From the NCBI GenBank assembly GCA_018651745.1, contig JABIDL010000023.1, forward strand, positions 1 through 10,219: DNA of 10,219 bases, in the 5' to 3' direction. Numbering within the stretch: position 1 is the stretch's first letter; each line of letters begins with the position of its first letter. This DNA comes from Candidatus Neomarinimicrobiota bacterium. Lineage in GTDB: Bacteria; Fidelibacterota; Marinisomatia; Marinisomatales; TCS55. A program made the translations under genes and the position numbers. Of the stretch, positions 250-10,059 are shown in pieces. Below the pieces are notes generated by a model. It was not told where the DNA came from. It searched no databases and saw nothing but the letters and a program-made list of their open reading frames with translations.

Positions 250-1197
250 TTAATCTTCCAGCTCTTCAACCAATTCTTCCACCACATCGAATAAATCTTC
301 TGCCATTCCATAATGAGCCACATCAAAGATGGGTGCATTTTTATCCGAGTTAATGGCAATAATTGTGGATGAACTTTTCATGCCTTCAATATGTTCCGGT
401 GCGCCAGAAATGCCCAAAGCAATATAGACTTTTGGTTTTACTTTCATTCCGGATTTACCCACTTGATGTGCTTTCGACATCCAGCCCGCATCCACTAACG
501 GACGGGAACACGCCAAATCAGCATCCAATACTTCAGCTAATTCTTCCGCCAATTCTATATCGTCTTTGCTTCCAATTCCACGACCTACCGCTACAAGAAT
601 TTCACTTTGAGTAATATCCACATCCGCTGCTTCCGGTTCAATGAGTTGCTTAAATCGAACTTTTCCTGCACCTGAATCAGCAGAAAAATCTTCTACCGAT
701 GGTGATCCTGGACTTTTGCCAGCATCCGCATTGAATGCGCCTGCTAATATCATCGCTACGGCAGAACCAGCCACATCAGTGACTACATTCATTTTTCCGC
801 CATACAAAGAACTGGTGCATGAAAATCCACTACCACTTGCACTCATATTCATACAGTAAGAAACGGTTGGCAACTCTAATGCGGTCGCAACCGAATTGGC
901 AATATCCATTCCCATGGATGTAGAGCCAACCATCACCAATGAAGGCGATTTTGCACTCACCACAGACTGAACAGCCGCAGCATAGGATTCCGGATTAAAA
1001 TCGTCACTTCCACCAACCGAAATAACAGAATCGGCTACGCCCAATTCACCGGCTTTTCCGTTCATGCTCCCAAATGTAACGGCGACACATTGACCACCGG
1101 ACGCACCGGCTAATTCTTTGGCTTTTCCCAGCATTTCAAAAGTAATGTCCTGGAATTCGCCCTTTAAATGTTCAGTTATGACTAAAATATCGCCCAT
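250..1197 (-). CDS. etfA: Electron transfer flavoprotein alpha subunit
   Basis: A 315-residue protein, normal length for EtfA. It forms a heterodimer with EtfB that carries FAD and shuttles electrons in the cytoplasm. The N-terminal Rossmann-like domain starts MGDILVITEH. The C-terminal FAD-binding domain is intact: VGRGIGSKDD (204-213), SRPLVDAGW (231-239), QVGKSG (245-250), GISGAPEHI (262-270) and AINSDKNAPIFDVAHYG (281-297). The C-terminus is strongly acidic (VEELVEELED). The ATG overlaps the etfB stop by one base (TAATG), so translation is probably coupled. Located downstream of the sHdr genes and upstream of a membrane ETF:quinone oxidoreductase, it is the likely acceptor of electrons from sulfur oxidation rather than from acyl-CoA dehydrogenases, none of which are seen here. 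Confidence 0.95.
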   Translation of the reverse strand: MGDILVITEHLKGEFQDITFEMLGKAKELAGASGGQCVAVTFGSMNGKAGELGVADSVISVGGSDDFNPESYAAAVQSVVSAKSPSLVMVGSTSMGMDIANSVATALELPTVSYCMNMSASGSGFSCTSSLYGGKMNVVTDVAGSAVAMILAGAFNADAGKSPGSPSVEDFSADSGAGKVRFKQLIEPEAADVDITQSEILVAVGRGIGSKDDIELAEELAEVLDADLACSRPLVDAGWMSKAHQVGKSGMKVKPKVYIALGISGAPEHIEGMKSSSTIIAINSDKNAPIFDVAHYGMAEDLFDVVEELVEELED

Positions 1198-1943
1198 TAG
1201 ATAACCCCTTTATCTTTTAAAACTTCGATTAAATCTTCCACATCGTCCAGCATTTTCGCACCGGAACCTTTTGCAGGTGGTGCCATACTTGCAACATTGC
1301 TTCCACTCCCACCACCTAAATCGCCCATGGATACTTCTTCGATAGATGCGGTTTCCTGCACTTGGCGAATTTTACTCACTGGTGCATATCTTGGCGCTTT
1401 CTTCGCAGCTTGAATGCCCAATACGGCCGGCATATCCACTTCAAATTCGCCCATCATACCACCTGAATATTCTTTATGCACTACTGCTGTTCCACCTGAA
1501 ACACTCACGCCGGACACAACACTCACGCATGGTGCACCTAAATAGCTCGCTACAATGGGTCCCAATTGTCCATCTCTGTCATCTACAGATTGGACACCGG
1601 TAAATACCATATCATACCCTTCTGTTTCTAAAGCATTGGCAAATGCTTTTCCCAGTTGATGGCTATCGGAAGGATTCCCACCCGTAAGCTTGACCGCTTT
1701 ATCCGCACCTTTGGCAATAGCCGTAAAAAGCATTTTATCTGCCCCATCACTGTCAATCGCCATAGCGACTACTTCATCAGCAGCGCCACTTTCTTTCAAT
1801 AAAATGGCTTCTTCTAATGCATGGTCATCAAATTCATTTAATTTAAATTTTATATCGTCCGTATCTAATGCTTTCCCGGAAGCATCTACTTCCAAGTCTT
1901 CCACCAAATCTGGAACTTGTTTTAATGGGACTACTATTTTCAT
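1197..1943 (-). CDS. etfB: Electron transfer flavoprotein beta subunit
   Basis: A 248-residue EtfB beginning MKIVVPLKQVPD, the classic family N-terminus, followed by LNEFDDHALEEA (35-46) and the nucleotide-binding loop GVQSVDDRDGQLGP (116-129). It pairs with EtfA encoded directly downstream. The ATG at 1943 is preceded by AGGAG with 5 nt spacing. An in-frame start at 2030 would add 29 residues, but these would be translated from the inverted-repeat element at 1962-2028 and resemble no EtfB, so that start is rejected. EtfB of this type normally binds AMP structurally. I cannot tell from sequence alone whether this ETF is bifurcating, but nothing seen suggests a second FAD role. The gene lies behind a repeat insertion and a broken tusA-like gene. 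Confidence 0.95.
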   Translation of the reverse strand: MKIVVPLKQVPDLVEDLEVDASGKALDTDDIKFKLNEFDDHALEEAILLKESGAADEVVAMAIDSDGADKMLFTAIAKGADKAVKLTGGNPSDSHQLGKAFANALETEGYDMVFTGVQSVDDRDGQLGPIVASYLGAPCVSVVSGVSVSGGTAVVHKEYSGGMMGEFEVDMPAVLGIQAAKKAPRYAPVSKIRQVQETASIEEVSMGDLGGGSGSNVASMAPPAKGSGAKMLDDVEDLIEVLKDKGVI

Positions 1944-1948
1944 TTTTT

Positions 1949-1953
1949 CTCCT
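1949..1953 (-). promoter_or_regulatory. Shine-Dalgarno site fixing the etfB start
   Basis: Minus-strand AGGAG lies 5 nt upstream of the ATG at 1941-1943. It decides the start in favour of MKIVVPLKQ over the upstream in-frame start inside the repeat. Confidence 0.75.
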
Positions 1954-1961
1954 GTTTTTTT

Positions 1962-2028
1962 CCACCAAGACGCGAAGGCACAAAGGATTTTTTCAATATT
2001 TTTCTTTGTGACTTTGAGCCTTTGTGGC
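1962..2028. repeat. Imperfect inverted repeat of the 'cacaaag' family, copy 1
   Basis: Two arms face each other around a short AT-rich spacer. The left arm (1962-1986) begins ccaccaagacgcgaaggc and the right arm (2004-2028) ends gagcctttgtggc. The reverse complement of the right arm matches the left arm with about six mismatches in 24 bases, so the transcript can fold into a hairpin. The right arm with its flank (2001-2028) matches the right arm at 8071-8098 in 27 of 28 bases, which shows a dispersed family. It lies between the tusA-like stop and the etfB ribosome site. No transposase is present; it resembles a non-autonomous (MITE-like) element. Confidence 0.75.
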
Positions 2029-2040
2029 AATGTTATTCAC

Positions 2041-2271
2041 TCATTTCATTTTTTGGACAAAGAAATGTCGTGTTTGTCCATCTTCATTTATGTTTAATAA
2101 TTTTTGTCCAGTCGACCTGCACCAGGCTTCCATATCCGGAACAGCTCATGGATGAGAACTGGTTAAATGTAAAATATTTCCAACCGATAATTTTTTCATG
2201 GCTTGCCAAGACCGAATCACAGGCATTCCCATTCCGCAATCCCCTGTTTCTATATGCATATCGACTTTCAT
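2041..2271 (-). pseudogene. TusA-like sulfur-carrier gene interrupted by one in-frame TGA (codon 42)
   Basis: Reading from ATG at 2269-2271 to TGA at 2041-2043 gives 76 codons with a TusA-like pattern, broken only by TGA at 2146-2148 (codon 42). Before it come ETGDCGMGMPVIRSWQAMKK and LSVGNILHLTSSHP. After it come AVPDMEAWCRSTGQKLL and a C-terminus ending HFFVQKMK. The window's own TusA has ATDPGSINDMNAW at the equivalent place, which puts the TGA at the family Gly (GGA to TGA is one substitution). The start shares a base with the shdrB3 stop (TAATG), so translation was or is coupled. The active-site region is C-G-x-G-x-P rather than CPxP, as in a divergent TusA-like branch that I recall with DPGAPxDIPAWCR motifs. 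The reading frame is otherwise clean, so this is a very recent nonsense change, a sequence error or a recoded codon. Cys or Sec at this site is possible but less expected. Confidence 0.7.
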
Positions 2272-3566
2272 TAAGCTTCTGCGTCGTCTCCCATGCAGTA
2301 ATCCATGATTTCAATAATATCCATGACGATCAATTTTCCATCATTATTTGTTGATTTAATGGCATCTTCGAATCGAGATACTTCATAAGGACAGCACACT
2401 GCCAAGACTTCTGCGCCCACTTCGATGGCTTCCTTCACACGGTTTTCGGATAAGCGTTCCGTGGTATGATCAGCGACCAAGCCATCCAGCCACATTCCGC
2501 CGCCGCCGCCGCCACAACAATAGCCTTGTTCTTTGCAACGATACATTTCAGAAAATTCAATTCCTGGAATCGCATTTAACAAAATTCGTGGCGCATCATA
2601 TTCTCCGTTATGGCGACCCAAATAACATGGGTCATGAAAAGTCACTTTCTTTGGAAAAGGTCTCTTCATGAGTTTGGATATAGCGTCAATTTGTTCAGCC
2701 AAAAATTGAGTATAATGTTGAAGATTATATTCTTTCCCGGTAACGGCTGGATAGAATTTCTTAAAGGCGTTAAATGCGTGCGGATCACTTACCACCAATT
2801 TATTATGGTCATATTTATCGAATTGCGCACCATTATGTTCTGCCAATTCTTCGAATAAGCCCGTCTCACCCACCAGTCGTTGAGAGTCACCATCGCATTT
2901 TTCTTCTTTCCCTAAAATTCCAAAATCAACATTCAAACGATTAAAAACGCGAACCATAGATTTTGCCGCATCATTTCCACGACCATGGAATGAAAAATAA
3001 TCACTCACATACCATAAAATATCCACTGGCTGGGGATCATCTTCTTTGGATAAATCGCGAACCGGCTCATCAAATTTCTTCAGCCACTTCACACGTTTCC
3101 GGGCAGAATCGCCCATGGGATTTCCATACTCTGCTACATTTTGCAACATATCTTGAAGCTCAGCCGGAACATTTCCATTCAAAACCGCTTGCTCTCGAAC
3201 TGCTGGCATAATTTTCATCATATCTACTTCTTTGGGACAAACGCGTAAACAATTGGAACATGTTGTGCACATCCACAAATCATCATGCGTAAATAAATCC
3301 ATGCCTGTTTGTAGCTTCCTGTAAATTTTTCTTGGGCCATAACTACCCACATTGTCAACGGGACAAACACCGATACATTGTGCACATTGATAACACCATC
3401 CCATGGATTCTCCGCCAACCAAGTCACGCACATTCTCCAATCCCGTAATATCGTATTCTGTAATTTCCCGTGGTTCATACATTTTATTCCATTCACCGGA
3501 AATATCAATCCCATCGATAACGACATTATCTTTTTGAATCCACTTTTCGTATTTATGTTCAGACAT
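2271..3566 (-). CDS. shdrB3: sHdrB3-type fused HdrC-HdrB iron-sulfur subunit
   Basis: A 431-residue fusion. The N-terminal HdrC-like part has two full 4Fe-4S motifs: CYQCAQCIGVCP (C58, C61, C64, C68) and CTTCSNCLRVCP (C100, C103, C106, C110). The C-terminal HdrB-like part has a complete second CCG domain: HDPCYLGRH (C314), GYCCGGGGGGMW (C350/C351) and AVCCPYE (C391/C392). The first CCG domain is degenerate and keeps only C224 in EKCDGDSQRLVGE, as in FadF/DsrK-type fusions. No membrane helix is seen, so it should be cytoplasmic. Family knowledge suggests it connects the sHdr complex to EtfAB, encoded downstream. It starts at ATG 3566 behind AAGGA (6 nt spacing). The upstream gap is filled by the GxxExxY cassette, which now separates it from shdrH. 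The B3 name rests on my recollection of type II sHdr clusters; 'HdrC2-B2 fusion' is the alternative name. Confidence 0.85.
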   Translation of the reverse strand: MSEHKYEKWIQKDNVVIDGIDISGEWNKMYEPREITEYDITGLENVRDLVGGESMGWCYQCAQCIGVCPVDNVGSYGPRKIYRKLQTGMDLFTHDDLWMCTTCSNCLRVCPKEVDMMKIMPAVREQAVLNGNVPAELQDMLQNVAEYGNPMGDSARKRVKWLKKFDEPVRDLSKEDDPQPVDILWYVSDYFSFHGRGNDAAKSMVRVFNRLNVDFGILGKEEKCDGDSQRLVGETGLFEELAEHNGAQFDKYDHNKLVVSDPHAFNAFKKFYPAVTGKEYNLQHYTQFLAEQIDAISKLMKRPFPKKVTFHDPCYLGRHNGEYDAPRILLNAIPGIEFSEMYRCKEQGYCCGGGGGGMWLDGLVADHTTERLSENRVKEAIEVGAEVLAVCCPYEVSRFEDAIKSTNNDGKLIVMDIIEIMDYCMGDDAEA

Positions 3567-3580
3567 ACTCTATCCTTGTT

Positions 3581-3694
3581 TAGACAGGATAACAGGATTG
3601 ACAAGATAAGAAAATAAAAGTTTGTATATTTTTATCATGTTTTTCAACCTATTTCTCTGTCGATTAATTTTATCCTGTAATCCAGTTTAATCTA
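3581..3694. repeat. Inverted pair of 'acaggat' repeats downstream of the GxxExxY gene
   Basis: The left arm at 3581-3615 (tagacaggataacaggattg followed by acaagataagaaaat) faces an inverted copy at 3659-3694 (attttatcctgtaatccag). The 3616-3658 spacer is AT-rich with no ORF. The GxxExxY stop codon (3687-3689) lies inside the right arm. The shdrB3 ribosome site begins just outside the left arm. Confidence 0.7.
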
Positions 3695-4058
3695 ATATTC
3701 TAACTTTTCGTTTAATTTCTACTTTTTTCTCACCAAAATTTATGAGAAGTCCTACATCCTTTTTAGTCGAAGTAAGATAATTTACCAATTGGACTTCATG
3801 AGATTTAGCCAAAGTTCGAATTGATTTATACTCAACTATAACTTCTCCCATAACAAGTTTATCCACAAAATATTCTCCAACTATTTGGTTTTCATAGTAA
3901 ACAGTTATGGCCTTTTCCATTTCGTATTTCAAACCAATTTTATCCATCTCAATCGCCATACATTTTGCATAAACTGATTCCAAGTATCCGAAACCCATCG
4001 TGTTATACACTTTGTATGCGCATCCAATTATCTGTTCTGTTAATTCTTCGTATTTCAT
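3687..4058 (-). CDS. GxxExxY family protein (PD-(D/E)XK nuclease-like)
   Basis: A 123-residue protein with the signature motif GFGYLESVY (G-x-x-E-x-x-Y) near residues 22-30. The second half has the PD-(D/E)XK-like core: GEYFVDKLVMGEVIVEYKS supplies D, E and K in nuclease spacing, followed by HEVQLVNYL and VGLLINFG, both hallmarks of the family (PDDEXK_3). Length is normal and the gene looks intact. Its biological role is unknown; the fold suggests nucleic-acid cleavage. It is flanked on both sides by inverted 'acaggat' repeats and its stop lies inside one of them, which implies gene and repeats move or persist as a unit. It has no evident role in sulfur metabolism. No strong Shine-Dalgarno precedes the ATG. 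Confidence 0.88.
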   Translation of the reverse strand: MKYEELTEQIIGCAYKVYNTMGFGYLESVYAKCMAIEMDKIGLKYEMEKAITVYYENQIVGEYFVDKLVMGEVIVEYKSIRTLAKSHEVQLVNYLTSTKKDVGLLINFGEKKVEIKRKVRILD

Positions 4059-4063
4059 TTTTT

Positions 4064-4217
4064 AATAGACGGGATTACAGTATTTGCAGGATAAGAAAAT
4101 ACCGTTCCGTAATTATTTTTTATCTGCTGGTTTATTTCAATTATTATTTTCAAGCCATTTTTCTTTTTTTTAGTTTTTTATAATCCTGTTTTATCCTGTA
4201 ATCCTGTAATCCTGTCC
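4064..4217. repeat. Inverted pair of 'acaggat' repeats upstream of the GxxExxY gene
   Basis: The arm at 4064-4100 (tagacgggattacag, then gcaggataagaaaat) is a direct copy of 3581-3615 with about eight differences. It faces an inverted array at 4180-4217 made of repeated atcctgt units (atcctgttttatcctgtaa and two more units). The 4101-4179 spacer is AT-rich with no gene. The last 12 codons and the stop of the shdrH-like gene are read out of the right arm. Confidence 0.7.
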
Positions 4218-4960
4218 AACTTATATACACCCAAAACTCTTTGGGCTAATTCTGATAATTCGGGTAAAATTCTATTGAATTCTTGAGAAAGTTTGACACG
4301 GAAAACGGTATACATATAAACGGCATACACACATGCGAGAAATACATCTGTCCCAAATAAACCTTTCCCTGAATCGGAAAATCCAATACTGTGCCCCACT
4401 GCATTGACCAAAGCCAATGATTGTCCCACTTTACCATAAATTTCACCATCGGATTGCCCAGATAGGTCTACACCTTCTTGAACAATTAATGGCAGTGAGC
4501 CGGTTCCTGTTTTTGAATCCCATATCCAATTGGTCCATAGCCAATATTTCTTCGGATTGGAAAAATGCAAGAGTTCGCTGGCAAAATTCACACGCATGGG
4601 GCCGTCCAACTTGTCCACTGAATCAATGAATCTATTAAAGCGTAGATCAATGTTATCATCGCTATATAACAAATCAGTTATGGATTGTTGAAGCGATTCA
4701 AATCCGTTGGCTTTTAAGATGCGATTCGCTTTCCGTTTTATGGAAAAGATCGAACCGACCAGTTGACAAAATTCATTTTCTGTCAAATCAGAAATATGAT
4801 CTTCTGATAATAAATCAGAAAATAAATTGGCCTTTTTTTCCAACTTTAAGCCAATATCTTCTAATTCAGTAGAAGTCGCTAATTTGGTAGCTTCTTTCAT
4901 GAATTCCATAGCTGCTTCTGAATCCACCACTTCTTGAATACTTACATTATCGTAAAGCAT
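4178..4960 (-). CDS. shdrH: Conserved hypothetical protein in the sHdrH position
   Basis: A 260-residue protein with no cofactor motif that I recognise. The N-terminal half is helical and charged. The middle has an aromatic run, KYWLWTNWIWD (138-148), followed by a Gly-rich region and a hydrophobic segment FLACVYAVYMYTVF (207-220), too polar at its edges for a confident membrane call. Its ATG directly abuts the shdrA stop (TAAATG), so it belongs to the sHdr translation unit. sHdr clusters carry a conserved uncharacterised gene right after shdrA, recently called shdrH, and the name here rests on that position. The C-terminal 12 residues (DRITGLQDKTGL) are translated from the 'acaggat' repeat, so the native C-terminus has been replaced or extended by the cassette. 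Confidence 0.75.
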   Translation of the reverse strand: MLYDNVSIQEVVDSEAAMEFMKEATKLATSTELEDIGLKLEKKANLFSDLLSEDHISDLTENEFCQLVGSIFSIKRKANRILKANGFESLQQSITDLLYSDDNIDLRFNRFIDSVDKLDGPMRVNFASELLHFSNPKKYWLWTNWIWDSKTGTGSLPLIVQEGVDLSGQSDGEIYGKVGQSLALVNAVGHSIGFSDSGKGLFGTDVFLACVYAVYMYTVFRVKLSQEFNRILPELSELAQRVLGVYKLDRITGLQDKTGL

Positions 4961-6022
4961 TTAGGCAGACTGTAGTTCAGATTTCCTTAAAAACGCGCAA
5001 GCTTTCATTACCGCAGATCCACCCATAGAGATGGAATCTTCCAAATCTGCAGGTCCAGCAGCAGCACCTGCTACAAATACACCCGGCACTTTAGTTTGAA
5101 CTGTATTCAAAGCACCACCAGTGGTTTCAATGAATCCATGTGATTCCAATGGCAATTTAAATGTGCCGGCCATTTCGGTCGTTCCTTTACTCGGCTCCAT
5201 TCCCACGGATAATACAACCATGTCCATTGGGATTTCCATTGGGCGACCCATGGTAGTATCTTCACCTTTGACTAACAGTTTGGCTCCACGTTTAGTGATT
5301 TCTGTCACGATACCGCGAATAAAATTCACATTCTTTTCTTCCTGGGCCTTCCAATAGATTTCATCTTCCCAGAAGCCATACATACGCATATCAATGTAAA
5401 AAACGAAAACACGTGTTTCAGGTAAAATATCTCGAATTTCAATCGCTTGTTTGCATGCTATTCCACAACATACTTTTGAGCACCATTGATTTCCAATTTG
5501 ACGATCACGACTTCCCACACATTGGATAAAACAGATTTGTTCTGGTTTTTTACCCGTGGATGGCACAAGAAAATTGTCTTCTTTCAACATTTTTTCAGCA
5601 TCCACCAAAGTGATCACATCATCATGCTCATAATAACCATACATTTGTGTTTCTTTGCCCGGATCGAAATGCTGGAATCCAGTGGATACAATCACAGACC
5701 CAACATCCACCACTTCTTCATTGGAACCATTTTGCAAAGTTACTTTCAAATTTGGCGCATCGCCTTCAGATCCAATCACCGATGTATTCAATCGAATATC
5801 CACCAACGGATTATCCGTAATGGCATCCACCATTTCTCCCATAGCTTCTTCAGCGCTTCTCATATCCGGCGTTAATGCTGCATAATGTGCAGAAATGGGG
5901 TTACCACCCAATACATCGGATTTATCCACCAAAATGGCATGATATCCAAGGTCTGCAATTCCACGAGTGGCTTCCAATCCAGCGGGGCCACCCCCAATAA
6001 CTAAAATTGGTTTATTTGACAT
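4961..6022 (-). CDS. shdrA: sHdrA, flavin and 4Fe-4S subunit of the sulfur-oxidizing Hdr-like complex
   Basis: A 353-residue HdrA-like flavoprotein. An N-terminal FAD-binding Rossmann motif LVIGGGPAGLEA lies at 7-18, with VDKSDVLGGNP after it. An HdrA-type 4Fe-4S insertion is present: CFIQCVGSRD (C164, C168) and CSKVCCGIACKQA (C181, C185, C186, C190). The C-terminal FAD segment is PGVFVAGAAAGPADLEDSI. It has the short single-module architecture of sHdrA and lacks the extra N-terminal and ferredoxin domains of methanogen HdrA. It is expected to hold the flavin where electrons from bound sulfur are collected. ATG at 6022 is preferred because GGGAGG sits 6 nt upstream; the alternative ATG at 6028 touches that site with no spacing. 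The start overlaps the end of shdrB1 by 11 nt. Confidence 0.92.
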   Translation of the reverse strand: MSNKPILVIGGGPAGLEATRGIADLGYHAILVDKSDVLGGNPISAHYAALTPDMRSAEEAMGEMVDAITDNPLVDIRLNTSVIGSEGDAPNLKVTLQNGSNEEVVDVGSVIVSTGFQHFDPGKETQMYGYYEHDDVITLVDAEKMLKEDNFLVPSTGKKPEQICFIQCVGSRDRQIGNQWCSKVCCGIACKQAIEIRDILPETRVFVFYIDMRMYGFWEDEIYWKAQEEKNVNFIRGIVTEITKRGAKLLVKGEDTTMGRPMEIPMDMVVLSVGMEPSKGTTEMAGTFKLPLESHGFIETTGGALNTVQTKVPGVFVAGAAAGPADLEDSISMGGSAVMKACAFLRKSELQSA

Positions 6023-7220
6023 CTGCATCCTCCCAGGTCATAAAATCAAGTTCGCCACTTTCGATTCGTTCGGCAATGGCTTCAAATTCGCCCCATGCTT
6101 TCTTATGGTCAATTCCCATCTTTTCAAGCAAAGGTTTATTATCAACGCCGTGCCAGTGTAACTGACACACATTATACGGATGTGCTCCCATGGCTAATGC
6201 TGCAAATTGCGCATCAGACAAAACAGGAATGCCCACATTTCTCCCATGAGCTTGTGCTGCAAATTGACTTTTATCCAATGTGGTTACACAACCCGTGTCA
6301 TGAGTAATGGTCACATCCGGATCTGCTTCTTCTTTCATCCGTTCAATTTTTCGTATAGTAGAAAAGGATCGTGAAAAATCTCGACTCACCAAAATATGGC
6401 GAAATCCAAATCCACAGCAATCGTGCCAAGTGGAATAATCCGCCGCCGTGGCACCTAATGCTTCCACGAGCCCCGTTACAATAGCCGTTCGTTGACCATC
6501 ATATAATTCCCTATCATAAATTGCATCTTCCACCACCAATTTATGATAATGACAAGCAGGATGAACTGTTGTGGTAATATTTCTAAAATCAACAACTTGC
6601 CGTTCTGCTATACGATGTCGCATCACATGAATCCATTCAGAATAATGAACAATTTCTTCTGGAAAGACAAATGGCATTTTCAAACGATCCATAATTCGGC
6701 GGACTTGGTCCCGTAATTCAGGATGATGGATGATTTCTTCCCGTGTTTCTTTATAATGCCCAAAACTTGTTCCACAGTGAATGAGTGGAAAATACCCATC
6801 CAATTTTGCCTGGGCGAAATTTCTTACAGCAATCGCCGCTTGAGCTGCAGGATTTGATGTGGATGAAGCATAATAATTCCAAGCCGTGCAGGAAGATTGA
6901 TCTTTTGGATCATAATAATCCAATCCAAATTGACGATGTAACCAGAATATTGCGGTAGAATATCCGGGAATATGTCCGCACTGCCCACAGGATTTATGAT
7001 GCCACGTATGTTCAATGGGGATTTTTTTCTTTCGGCCATATTTTGTTTCTACTTCCACAATTGGTTCTGGCACACGATGGACTTCTAATTCGCCTTTCGC
7101 TTCCAATTCAAATAATTTTTCCCGATAATCTTCCGTTGGCGGTTTCCCATCACGGACAAATTCTCTTAAAGGAACTTTAGATTCCGTATGAACCGCTGGC
7201 GCTTGTGTTGTTGTTTCCAT
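6012..7220 (-). CDS. shdrB1: sHdrB1, HdrB-like CCG-domain subunit
   Basis: A 402-residue HdrB-like protein with two modified CCG domains. Candidate cluster ligands are KSCGQCG (C78, C81), SSCTAW (C111) and HCGTSFGH (C149), then HPACHYHK (C223), HDCCGFGFRH (C268/C269) and DTGCVTTLDKSQ (C311). In the second domain the usual last CxxC is C-x-x-T, so the classical non-cubane site may lack a ligand. Many His residues near the cysteines could substitute. In Hdr, this subunit holds the catalytic noncubane clusters; in sHdr it is thought to form the core with C1 and A, acting on lipoate-bound sulfur. The start ATG at 7220 has GGGA upstream and lies 10 nt after the shdrC1 stop. Confidence 0.9.
   Translation of the reverse strand: METTTQAPAVHTESKVPLREFVRDGKPPTEDYREKLFELEAKGELEVHRVPEPIVEVETKYGRKKKIPIEHTWHHKSCGQCGHIPGYSTAIFWLHRQFGLDYYDPKDQSSCTAWNYYASSTSNPAAQAAIAVRNFAQAKLDGYFPLIHCGTSFGHYKETREEIIHHPELRDQVRRIMDRLKMPFVFPEEIVHYSEWIHVMRHRIAERQVVDFRNITTTVHPACHYHKLVVEDAIYDRELYDGQRTAIVTGLVEALGATAADYSTWHDCCGFGFRHILVSRDFSRSFSTIRKIERMKEEADPDVTITHDTGCVTTLDKSQFAAQAHGRNVGIPVLSDAQFAALAMGAHPYNVCQLHWHGVDNKPLLEKMGIDHKKAWGEFEAIAERIESGELDFMTWEDADVK
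6029..6034 (-). promoter_or_regulatory. Shine-Dalgarno site fixing the shdrA start
   Basis: Minus-strand GGGAGG lies inside the end of shdrB1, exactly 6 nt upstream of the ATG at 6020-6022. It abuts the alternative ATG at 6026-6028, which would leave no spacer, so the shorter start is favoured. Confidence 0.75.
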
Positions 7221-7230
7221 ATAATTCCCT

Positions 7231-7950
7231 TTATTCTTCTAAAACATTTTCAAAATCATCAATATCATATCCATTGTCGTCCAATAATTCTTCCATCACC
7301 TCTTCTAAAATCATGTATATACCTTCATCGATGCCTTCAATGAGCTCCAAATTCCCGGTCAATTTCCAAATCATGTATAATTCTAATCGCGTTTTTTCTG
7401 AAACATCCCAAGCCAGTTCAGTGGTATGAAGTGTTTCTGGTGGAATTGCACGACGCCAAACATCCAAATTTTCTGCAACGGCCTTTACATCTGTTCCCCA
7501 ATCTGGGAAAAAGTCTGGCTGAAGCATATCTGGCGCCACTTGCGTTCCAGTGGACATAACCTTGTAAATAATTCTACTATATGCTTTAAGGGCATCTTTT
7601 GCAGATTGCATACCGGCACGAACCGCTGCATCTCGCATCATAAGAATAATTCCACCTGGATTGTTTTCTCTGGGACATCGTGTGCAAGAATAACATTGAG
7701 AACAATCCCAAACGCTGTCATTCAATAATTCATAAAACGTATCCACATCTTCTCTTGCCATAATTTGAGCAAAAACCCGTGGACTAAAATCGTAAAACCG
7801 GGCAGATGGACATGCAGCCACACAAATGCCACATTCATAGCATCCATATAAATTGTGATCATAACGCATGTCATCTTTCACTTCTTTGAAGAGCTTTAAT
7901 TTCTCTTCATAAGGGACATCCATGTATTTAGCATCTGTATAAATTGACAT
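7231..7950 (-). CDS. shdrC1: sHdrC1, iron-sulfur electron-transfer subunit
   Basis: A 239-residue HdrC-like protein with two cysteine motifs: CYECGICVAACP (C37, C40, C43, C47) and CSQCYSCTRCP (C83, C86, C89, C92). The second has only two residues between its third and fourth cysteines, where the usual motif has three. The C-terminal third is helical and very acidic, ending DDFENVLEE. It should carry two 4Fe-4S clusters and link sHdrB1 to sHdrA, encoded next. The ATG at 7950 is preceded by AGGA with 6 nt spacing. A GTG at 7974 would add eight residues but runs into the upstream repeat element. It is the first sHdr core gene and follows the thioredoxin gene after 110 nt that contain repeat copy 2. 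Confidence 0.92.
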   Translation of the reverse strand: MSIYTDAKYMDVPYEEKLKLFKEVKDDMRYDHNLYGCYECGICVAACPSARFYDFSPRVFAQIMAREDVDTFYELLNDSVWDCSQCYSCTRCPRENNPGGIILMMRDAAVRAGMQSAKDALKAYSRIIYKVMSTGTQVAPDMLQPDFFPDWGTDVKAVAENLDVWRRAIPPETLHTTELAWDVSEKTRLELYMIWKLTGNLELIEGIDEGIYMILEEVMEELLDDNGYDIDDFENVLEE

Positions 7951-7969: not shown

Positions 7970-8098
7970 GACACGAAGACACGAAGACTCTAATTGAGTT
8001 TTGATATTTTTTGACCCCTTTGTGTTTCCCCAATAACAGGGGAAAATATTTGGTTTCATTTCAACTTTCATTTCTTTGTGTCTTTGAGCCTTTGTGGC
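7970..8098. repeat. Imperfect inverted repeat of the 'cacaaag' family, copy 2
   Basis: The left arm at 7970-7990 (gacacgaagacacgaagac) faces the right arm at 8071-8098 (tttctttgtgtctttgagcc then tttgtggc). Arm-to-arm pairing is imperfect, about 14 of 19 bases. The right arm differs from that of copy 1 at only one of 28 bases, while the internal sequence is different and longer. Inside is a 7-bp hairpin, TTTCCCC/GGGGAAA (8025-8031 and 8039-8045), with a 7-nt loop. It fills the space between the thioredoxin and shdrC1 genes, and the right arm is translated as the thioredoxin C-terminus. Confidence 0.7.
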
Positions 8099-8363
8099 TA
8101 TTTTCTAATTCTAAAAAATCTTTTTCTAATTGGTCGACTTTCGGTAATCCCACAATCCGTTTTATTTCTATTTCATTTTTATAAAATATCATTGTTGGAA
8201 TTGTTTTGATTCCCACCTTCTGCGCTATTGAAAGCCCAGTCTTATTTTCCAATTTGACCGTTTCCAAATTTAAATTGCCATGAGCTTCAGATAAAGCCCA
8301 CGCCATCTCCACAGCAGGACCACATCCCCCGCAAGCAGGATGTGTAAAAATACGAAGAGTCAT
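8061..8363 (-). CDS. Small thioredoxin-like protein with CGGC active site
   Basis: A 100-residue thioredoxin-fold protein starting MTLRIFTHPACGGC, with redox pair C11 and C14 and the cis-Pro loop KTIPTMIFYKN (P56). The region after the fold is short. It has no signal peptide, so it should act in the cytoplasm. Placed between lbpA and shdrC1, it may reduce or transfer persulfides or disulfides in the sulfur-carrier chain; this is inferred from context only. The ATG at 8363 gives the family-like start. A TTG at 8372 would add three residues and lacks a better ribosome site. The last residues (HKGSKTQRN plus ES) are read from the 'cacaaag' repeat arm, so the natural end was probably near LELENS. 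Confidence 0.82.
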   Translation of the reverse strand: MTLRIFTHPACGGCGPAVEMAWALSEAHGNLNLETVKLENKTGLSIAQKVGIKTIPTMIFYKNEIEIKRIVGLPKVDQLEKDFLELENSHKGSKTQRNES

Positions 8364-8391: not shown

Positions 8392-8853
8392 TTAGCCTTC
8401 AAATCCTTCACAATGGATGCATTCACCCATTTCTTTTTCTGTCATATAACCATCAAATCCAGAAATTGCATCATCACCCATAACTAATTCGCCAGAGTCG
8501 CCATCATAATCAGTTGGCTGTATTCGAACAATCCACCCTTGTTTATATGGACTCCTATTCAAAACAGTAGCATCACTTTCTACAGCATCATTCTTGGCTA
8601 CAATTTCTCCGGCAAATGGCGTCTTAACTGGCCCGACCCATTTCCCACTTTCAACCGTGGCAATGCTTTTGCCTTTTTTAACTGATTTTCCCACTTTTTT
8701 TGCACGGCAATGAAGCATGGCTCCTGCCAACGATTGGGCAATATCTGTCATACCCAAATCAACGGTTCCATCATCATTTTTTTTAATCCATACATTAAAA
8801 TCCACATGATATTGAAGATCATCCGGTAGCATACAATTTTTTAATTCAGCCAT
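8392..8853 (-). CDS. lbpA: LbpA, lipoate-binding (GcvH-like) protein of the sHdr pathway
   Basis: A 153-residue GcvH-like protein. The lipoylation hairpin is VESGKWVGP with Lys71 as the predicted attachment site, preceded by LGMTDIAQSLAG and followed by TPFAGEIVAKN and the PYKQGWIVRI strand, all typical of the H-protein fold. It is longer than glycine-cleavage GcvH, and no gcvT or gcvP is nearby. With tusA, dsrE3 and shdr genes alongside, it matches the LbpA proteins that carry sulfur on lipoate for sHdr. The C-terminus ends in CIHCEGFEG, giving a C145-x-x-C148 pair; two more cysteines are C7 and C49. The ATG has AAGGA 7 nt upstream. The dedicated lipoate-assembly genes expected for this protein are not in the window. 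Confidence 0.92.
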   Translation of the reverse strand: MAELKNCMLPDDLQYHVDFNVWIKKNDDGTVDLGMTDIAQSLAGAMLHCRAKKVGKSVKKGKSIATVESGKWVGPVKTPFAGEIVAKNDAVESDATVLNRSPYKQGWIVRIQPTDYDGDSGELVMGDDAISGFDGYMTEKEMGECIHCEGFEG

Positions 8854-9259: not shown

Positions 9260-9769
9260 CTATACAAATAATTGAATATCTGCATCTGCAGCATATTCTA
9301 AAAAGGTGGCCGCCCCACCAACATCTACACCATCAATGAATTCTTCTTTTTGAAACCCAAACACATCCATGGTCATTTGACAACCGATAAATTTGACTCC
9401 GGATTCCAAACACATGTCTCTTAATTCTTCAATGGATGCCACGCCTTTATTTTTAAATGTTTGTTTCATAAGGCCAGTAGCCATTGATTCAAATCCAGGC
9501 ATATTTCCCATCAAAACATTTGGCATTGGCCATTCAAAATCTTGAAATCCTTTTGGGCCAAACGGCATTTTCATGGGCATAGCCGGATTGGTTGCAGGCG
9601 CTACTTTTGCCTTAATATCCTTTTTAAGTAATGTTAATCCATAGAATGTGAAAAAGATTTGAACTTCCATATCCAATGCAGCAGCCGTGGATGCCAAAAT
9701 GAATGGCGGGTAAGCCCAATCTAATGTTCCTTGGGAGGCAATTAAGGCCATTTTCTTTTGTTCACTCAT
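9260..9769 (-). CDS. dsrE3A: DsrE3A sulfurtransferase
   Basis: A 169-residue DsrE/DsrF/DrsH-like protein beginning KMALIASQGTLDWAYPPF, with the Met/Pro-rich central insertion typical of DsrE3A (NPAMPMKMPFGPKGF, then MPNVLMGNMPGFE). Two cysteines, C120 (LRDMCLES) and C130 (KFIGCQMTMDVFG), are ten residues apart. That matches the spacing of the Cys93/Cys103 pair that I recall from the archaeal DsrE3A, which accepts thiosulfonate and exchanges it with TusA. It acts in the cytoplasm with TusA, encoded immediately upstream. AGGAG precedes the ATG by 7 nt. The 53-nt AT-rich gap to tusA shows no clear promoter or terminator. Confidence 0.92.
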   Translation of the reverse strand: MSEQKKMALIASQGTLDWAYPPFILASTAAALDMEVQIFFTFYGLTLLKKDIKAKVAPATNPAMPMKMPFGPKGFQDFEWPMPNVLMGNMPGFESMATGLMKQTFKNKGVASIEELRDMCLESGVKFIGCQMTMDVFGFQKEEFIDGVDVGGAATFLEYAADADIQLFV

Positions 9770-9822: not shown

Positions 9823-10059
9823 TTAAGATTTTTTAATAAAAAATGTATAAATACCATCTTCAACATTGTGAGACAGTAATTCATTCCCTGTTCGTCTAGA
9901 CCAAGCATTCATGTCATTGATTGATCCTGGGTCTGTAGCTTCCATTTTCAAAACTTGACCCACATCCATCGCATCTACCTGTTTTTTAGTTTTTAGGATA
10001 GGTAAAGGACAATTCATTCCTTTACAATCCAGCTCCTGATCATATGTTGTATCGTTCAT
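9823..10059 (-). CDS. tusA: TusA sulfur-carrier protein
   Basis: A 78-residue TusA with the canonical motif LDCKGMNCPLPILKTKK; C17 of CPxP is the persulfide-bearing residue and C12 precedes it. The second half has ATDPGSINDMNAWSRRTG and a closing strand YTFFIKKS. Length and fold pattern are normal. It carries sulfane sulfur in the cytoplasm to the DsrE3 proteins encoded next. The start lies 11 nt after the ArsR-type gene with GGGAG just upstream, so the regulator and the carrier genes are co-transcribed. It is a useful in-window reference for the divergent, TGA-interrupted TusA-like gene at 2041-2271. Confidence 0.94.
   Translation of the reverse strand: MNDTTYDQELDCKGMNCPLPILKTKKQVDAMDVGQVLKMEATDPGSINDMNAWSRRTGNELLSHNVEDGIYTFFIKKS

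Follow-up and report, generated by a model that had tools for sequence, protein, structure and literature searches.

A TusA-fold protein with a probable selenocysteine, encoded within sulfur-oxidation gene clusters of Neomarinimicrobiota

Sulfur carriers of the TusA type pass sulfur on through cysteines: in Metallosphaera cuprina, thiosulfonate groups are exchanged between TusA and DsrE3A through these residues (PMC4175335). Among the sulfur-oxidizing systems in which tusA genes are found, the type II sHdr system has been defined by the co-occurrence of shdrC1B1AHB3 with etfAB in a single syntenic cluster (PMC11582611). The window, by which we mean the whole stretch of DNA analysed here (10,219 nucleotides from a Candidatus Neomarinimicrobiota bacterium), contains a cluster that is of type II by this definition and that also includes tusA, dsrE2, a second dsrE, lbpA, a thioredoxin gene, shdrC1B1A and a gene for a hypothetical protein (hyp). 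Between its shdrB3 and etfBA lies a short gene for which we propose the name SeTusA. Our main reading, to which we assign a probability of roughly 0.9, is that SeTusA encodes a TusA-fold selenoprotein whose UGA codon 42 would be decoded by SelB and tRNA-Sec with the help of a downstream hairpin, and that this protein would have a role in sulfane-sulfur transfer. The features on which the argument draws are as follows.

2041 to 2271, minus strand: SeTusA (name proposed here), candidate selenoprotein gene with TusA fold, 76 codons plus a TGA stop
2146 to 2148, minus strand: in-frame UGA at codon 42, most likely decoded as selenocysteine on the basis of its conservation in 18/18 distinct homologues and the sel machinery in the genome
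2236 to 2238, minus strand: codon for Cys12 of the invariant CGMGMPVIR motif, at the canonical TusA CPxP place
2113 to 2128, minus strand: SECIS-like hairpin, bulged and with outer pairs that covary, based on synonymous-site freezing, per-sequence folds, pair counts and the bSECIS model (PMC13188914)
2271 to 3566, minus strand: fused shdrC2B2 (= shdrB3), upstream of SeTusA and translationally coupled to it
1197 to 1946, minus strand: etfB, downstream of SeTusA
250 to 1197, minus strand: etfA, downstream of SeTusA
9823 to 10059, minus strand: canonical TusA (CPLP, DPGS), likely partner
9260 to 9769, minus strand: DsrE2-type protein (PF13686), whose gene adjoins SeTusA in a second gene context
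8392 to 8853, minus strand: LbpA-like lipoate-binding protein (GCV_H)
4961 to 7950, minus strand: shdrC1-B1-A of the sHdr complex

Translated along the minus strand from 2271 to 2041, the gene reads MKVDMHIETGDCGMGMPVIRSWQAMKKLSVGNILHLTSSHP, the in-frame TGA of codon 42, AVPDMEAWCRSTGQKLLNINEDGQTRHFFVQKMK and the terminal TGA. The ATG start and the TAA stop of fused shdrC2B2, the gene upstream, overlap (TAATG), and codon 42 aligns with the glycine of DPGS in the window's canonical TusA (9823-10059). An earlier note on this DNA had described a TAATG-coupled, TusA-like frame with a single in-frame TGA at 2146-2148 facing that glycine, and our analysis confirms each of these points and places the frame on the minus strand; the plus-strand reading of 2041-2271 is noise. 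The joined frame matches the Pfam TusA family at 43.2 bits (cut-off 28.6). When the halves are searched separately, the first has no match and the second scores 18.3 bits. In the window codon 47 is an ATG, from which a second short protein could in principle be reinitiated 3' of the TGA, but this codon is ATG in just 2/18 members and the fold, like the Pfam match, depends on having the two halves together, and we give the idea of two separate short proteins practically no weight.

An AlphaFold model of the protein (pLDDT 90) adopts the TusA fold, and the solved structures that it matches best are IscS-bound E. coli TusA (3lvj, Z 14.1) and the TusA domain of TsuB. Alba, IF3-C and similar structures (Z <9) were also matched and were set aside as sharing only the arrangement. 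All full-length members of the family have the motif CGMGMPVIR. They lack CPxP, with a methionine at the place of its sulfur-carrying cysteine and an invariant cysteine, Cys12, two residues earlier. SeTusA is thus a TusA-fold homologue and not a canonical TusA. No NCBIfam model (June 2026) fits the protein, the best being YedF at 27.5 bits against a cut-off of 79.

The earlier note had proposed a recent GGA-to-TGA substitution and left decay, readthrough and recoding open. The timing proved wrong: the TGA is an old, fixed trait of a TusA subfamily that is also without the CPxP cysteine. A scan of GTDB contigs turned up the same TGA at seven loci, of which six belong to Neomarinimicrobiota MAGs and the seventh to a Chloroflexota MAG. 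When 245 Neomarinimicrobiota genomes were searched with a profile, 17 full-length members and a partial one were recovered, and each of these contains a single TGA, located at codon 42. After removal of one identical copy, the set comprises 18 distinct sequences from these two phyla, and the related genomes in which the note had suggested looking for the same TGA do carry it, in 18/18 cases, a recurrence that chance cannot account for. Identity to the window protein ranges from 46 to 93% among distinct members aligned in full, and the UGA codon together with the hairpin behind it is kept in 19 genomes. In all pairs tested pN/pS was below 1 both 5' and 3' of the TGA, indicating purifying selection on both sides.

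These data bear directly on the simplest alternative, that a TusA-like gene was very recently disrupted by a nonsense mutation at a glycine codon. The two halves do still look like sound protein sequence, as they would soon after such an event, and three relatives do carry decayed copies. However, the TGA is fixed across the 18 homologues, selection persists 3' of it, and the truly decayed copies are unlike the intact members: one has Ser at position 42 and a TAA (G146), one has a frameshift (G138) and one is a fragment (G189). The lesions expected of a plain pseudogene are confined to these three copies, and at the codon where an assembly error would predict GGA the relatives carry TGA. Because the TGA is conserved, both sides are under selection and decayed copies look different, we reject a recent nonsense mutation, whose probability we regard as negligible, as well as an assembly error; neither decay nor assembly error explains the in-frame TGA.

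The note had also suggested a search for sel genes, and these are all present in the window's genome: selA (502 bits) adjoins selB (355 bits), selD scores 402 bits, and a tRNA-Sec with a UCA anticodon scores 68.7 bits (gathering score 47). The selD gene (L027, G000:C8:10947-11873) has an in-frame TGA at GSG-U-ACK, making SelD a selenoprotein itself. This is a known Sec or Cys position of SelD proteins, and selD thus represents a second gene with the same signature. Among the carrier genomes, selA was found in 18/19 and selB in 17/19; the two MAGs without selB, one of which is also without selA, are incomplete assemblies with 82-86% completeness. The presence of selA has little discriminating power, since the gene occurs in the majority of the phylum's genomes.

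Within the window TGA serves as an ordinary stop for the thioredoxin gene and for SeTusA itself, and as TGA ends other genes here, reassignment of the genetic code is ruled out. Translation of UGA-42 could instead come about through readthrough or through a tRNA other than tRNA-Sec (Trp, Gly). In the ordinary TusA segments taken from the retrieved loci the aligned residue is Gly (49/52) or Ala (3/52) and never Cys (0/52), and an exchange of Sec for Cys is unsupported by any Cys homologue. No Cys form was seen at this position in the 245 Neomarinimicrobiota genomes or in two overlapping Chloroflexota draws (400 and 396 genomes); the homologues inspected were canonical TusA proteins with CPxP and DPG or DPA. 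Matches on plasmids were 28-31% identical and annotated TusA. Against decoding of UGA-42 by such other means, UGA terminates other genes of the window in the usual way, the full Sec machinery is present, and a downstream hairpin at the position of a SECIS element is under RNA-level constraint. Furthermore, a glycine site would not require that UGA be retained in 18/18 members. We consider readthrough or decoding by another tRNA quite improbable. On the genomic evidence UGA-42 almost certainly encodes selenocysteine; of the outcomes left open earlier, recoding as Sec is strongly supported, and decay is contradicted by the conserved TGA, the selection on both sides, the hairpin and the sel machinery.

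The RNA-level constraint is visible in the synonymous codons. At amino acids shared between diverged members, the codon is also shared in 31% of cases before the TGA and in 62% in codons 43-55. The excess is concentrated at individual codons of the latter stretch, where Ala49 is GCC in 17/17, Cys51 is TGC in 16/16, Arg52 is AGR in 18/18 and Gly55 is GGA in 16/17; upstream of the TGA, Arg20 is CGN in 17/17. Most of the frozen letters in codons 49, 51, 52 and 55 belong to a hairpin, CCUG-[GUG or GGU]-CAGG, whose outer pairs covary (G-C, C-G, A-U and U-A at one position) and which has a one-base bulge in most members. In the window its core, CCUG-[GUG]-CAGG, lies at 2116-2126, and the loop (2120-2122) begins 23 nt behind the UGA. 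Folds of individual sequences give a stem of 5-7 bp and an apical loop of 3 nt, GUG or GGU, with G first. The bSECIS model (PMC13188914) describes an apical loop of 3-9 nt with a G in its first two positions, located 16-37 nt after the UGA on an upper stem of at least 4 bp, with a free energy of at most -7.5 kcal/mol. The hairpin falls within this model in loop distance, loop size, G position and stem length; energies of the 21-nt hairpin range from -4.8 (window) to -8.0 kcal/mol, to be read against a threshold of -7.5 for which the length of the scored stretch is unstated.

We recognised the hairpin from the synonymous-codon pattern together with the per-sequence hairpin folds. The low stability of the window's minimal hairpin is a weak point of this assignment, as are two predictions: the minimum-free-energy structure computed for the 50 nt that follow the UGA is a different fold (z -1.2), and unguided RNAalifold did not choose the hairpin. 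When the bulge is fixed in one column, some members miss a pair, their bulge being one base earlier or absent. An Rfam search of the window gave no match.

SeTusA recurs in two main gene contexts. Among 12 Neomarinimicrobiota genomes with a close shdrB3, the arrangement seen in the window has an intact SeTusA in nine, a decayed copy in two and another ORF in the slot in one. In this last genome (L113, G108) the ORF between shdrB3 and etfB appears, by eye, to be YbgC-type thioesterase-like. The second context has the order tusA, dsrE2, SeTusA, a rhodanese/metallo-beta-lactamase (persulfide-dioxygenase-like) gene, FeS/NrfD genes and a Mo oxidoreductase gene. Seven loci preserve this order, although the contig of one of them stops short of the Mo oxidoreductase gene, and an eighth shows it with a decayed SeTusA. 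These clusters (L095 9486-15466 and equivalents) are without sHdr genes and are apparently another sulfur-oxidation module. Not counting the window, 16 carrier loci have sulfur-oxidation genes as neighbours, and their clusters include tusA and dsrE2 in every case where the contig extends that far. No sulfur gene was found near the Chloroflexota copy. Because both main contexts include tusA and dsrE2, the gene order suggests that the products of these two genes are the likeliest partners of SeTusA.

Several other features of these loci were observed. The hyp protein of the sHdr locus (window 4178-4960) is 52-96% identical across loci and belongs to no Pfam family. Between hyp and shdrB3, inside the sHdr operon, the window has a PDDEXK_3 (GxxExxY-type) gene at 3687-4058 that is missing from the other sHdr loci except on an identical contig, and it therefore looks like a recent insertion. 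The intergenic regions 7975-8100 and 1950-2040 share repeat-like text, such as ttgtgactttgagcctttgtggc and tttgtgtctttgagcctttgtggc, and similar "atcctgt" repeats occur at 3580-3700 and 4060-4220. A contig from a MAG of a different family (L107, G130:C42) is 100% identical to window 1006-7869 over all of its 6,864 nt. Probably one of the two bins holds a mis-binned contig, and the shdrB3 identity of this contig, 97-98% to the window's own family and 85% to the other, suggests that the bin is G130.

How SeTusA might work can be sketched from these data. We envision that SelB and tRNA-Sec would decode UGA-42 as selenocysteine under the direction of the hairpin 20-35 nt downstream, and that the protein would act in sulfane-sulfur transfer for the sHdr-LbpA system and, in the second context, beside the persulfide-dioxygenase-like enzyme and the Mo oxidoreductase. 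Judging from its neighbours, SeTusA likely handles sulfane sulfur for oxidation. Since the usual nucleophile, the CPxP cysteine, is replaced by methionine, the reactive residue would be Sec42, together with the invariant Cys12. Sec42 opens helix 2 and Cys12 immediately precedes helix 1, and because both helix starts share one sheet edge in the TusA topology, a Cys12/Sec42 pair is plausible. Sulfur could be taken from TusA or DsrE2 as a selenopersulfide or by way of a Cys12-Sec42 bond. That Sec42 itself carries sulfur as a selenopersulfide is a tentative proposal to which we give a little less than even odds, the main alternative being a Cys12/Sec42 redox pair. We are similarly cautious about the broader picture of a Sec-only TusA branch in which the nucleophile would have moved from the CPxP cysteine of helix 1 to the Sec of helix 2, and in which sHdr-LbpA oxidation in Neomarinimicrobiota would run through a selenopersulfide carrier.

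A different view of the protein is that it is a selenoprotein but functions as a thiol/selenol oxidoreductase or in selenium handling rather than as a sulfur carrier. The sulfur-carrying CPxP cysteine is lost, Cys12 and Sec42 could form a redox pair, SirA-DsrE proteins of the YedF type have been linked to selenium metabolism (PMC5322559), and the Chloroflexota copy lies away from sulfur genes. However, the association of the 16 other carrier loci with sulfur-oxidation genes, tusA and dsrE2 among them, speaks against such functions, and we regard them as unlikely. We favor the model in which SeTusA is a selenoprotein of sulfane-sulfur transfer.

SeTusA probably represents a new selenoprotein family. 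The main texts of two prokaryotic inventories (PMC13188914, from 2026, and PMC9312934), of the Global Ocean survey (PMC2398784) and of the deep-Sep paper (PMC12013277) contain no TusA/SirA selenoprotein, though supplementary files or subscription papers may list one, and a full-text literature search for "selenoprotein" with "TusA-like" gave no result. Because the Sec faces Gly or Ala and the gene has only 76 codons, it would escape standard gene callers and searches that rely on Sec/Cys pairs, and its loci are probably left empty in annotations. If our reading is correct, SeTusA is the first TusA-fold selenoprotein in the literature searched and the first link between selenium and sHdr sulfur oxidation, in uncultured marine bacteria, and it becomes directly testable whether these bacteria need selenium and whether their sulfur oxidation includes a selenopersulfide step.

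Compared with described systems, SeTusA is closest to the TusA/SirA-like sulfurtransferases (PF01206; E. coli TusA and the TusA domain of TsuB/YeeD), with which it shares fold, length, Pfam match and a place in sulfur-trafficking clusters. It differs from them in the absence of CPxP, in having Met for the persulfide-carrying Cys with a Cys two residues earlier, and in the predicted Sec at the glycine of DPG. Selenoproteins of sulfur chemistry, namely DsrE-like UxxC proteins, rhodanese-like proteins and a type III sulfide:quinone reductase subtype, likewise depend on a bSECIS and the Sel machinery to decode their UGA and have sulfur-related partners. They belong to other folds and families and usually have Cys counterparts, whereas the relatives of SeTusA have Gly or Ala and no Cys form was found. 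YedF, with its SirA-like and DsrE-like domains (TIGR03527), is another case of a SirA/TusA domain linked to selenium; it keeps CPxP, is linked to SelD by gene neighbourhood and is not described as a selenoprotein, whereas SeTusA would itself carry Sec. Finally, the cluster in the window has shdrC1B1A-hyp-B3, etfAB, lbpA, tusA and dsrE in common with type II sHdr-LbpA clusters (PMC11582611), and adds to them a putative selenoprotein gene between shdrB3 and etfB.
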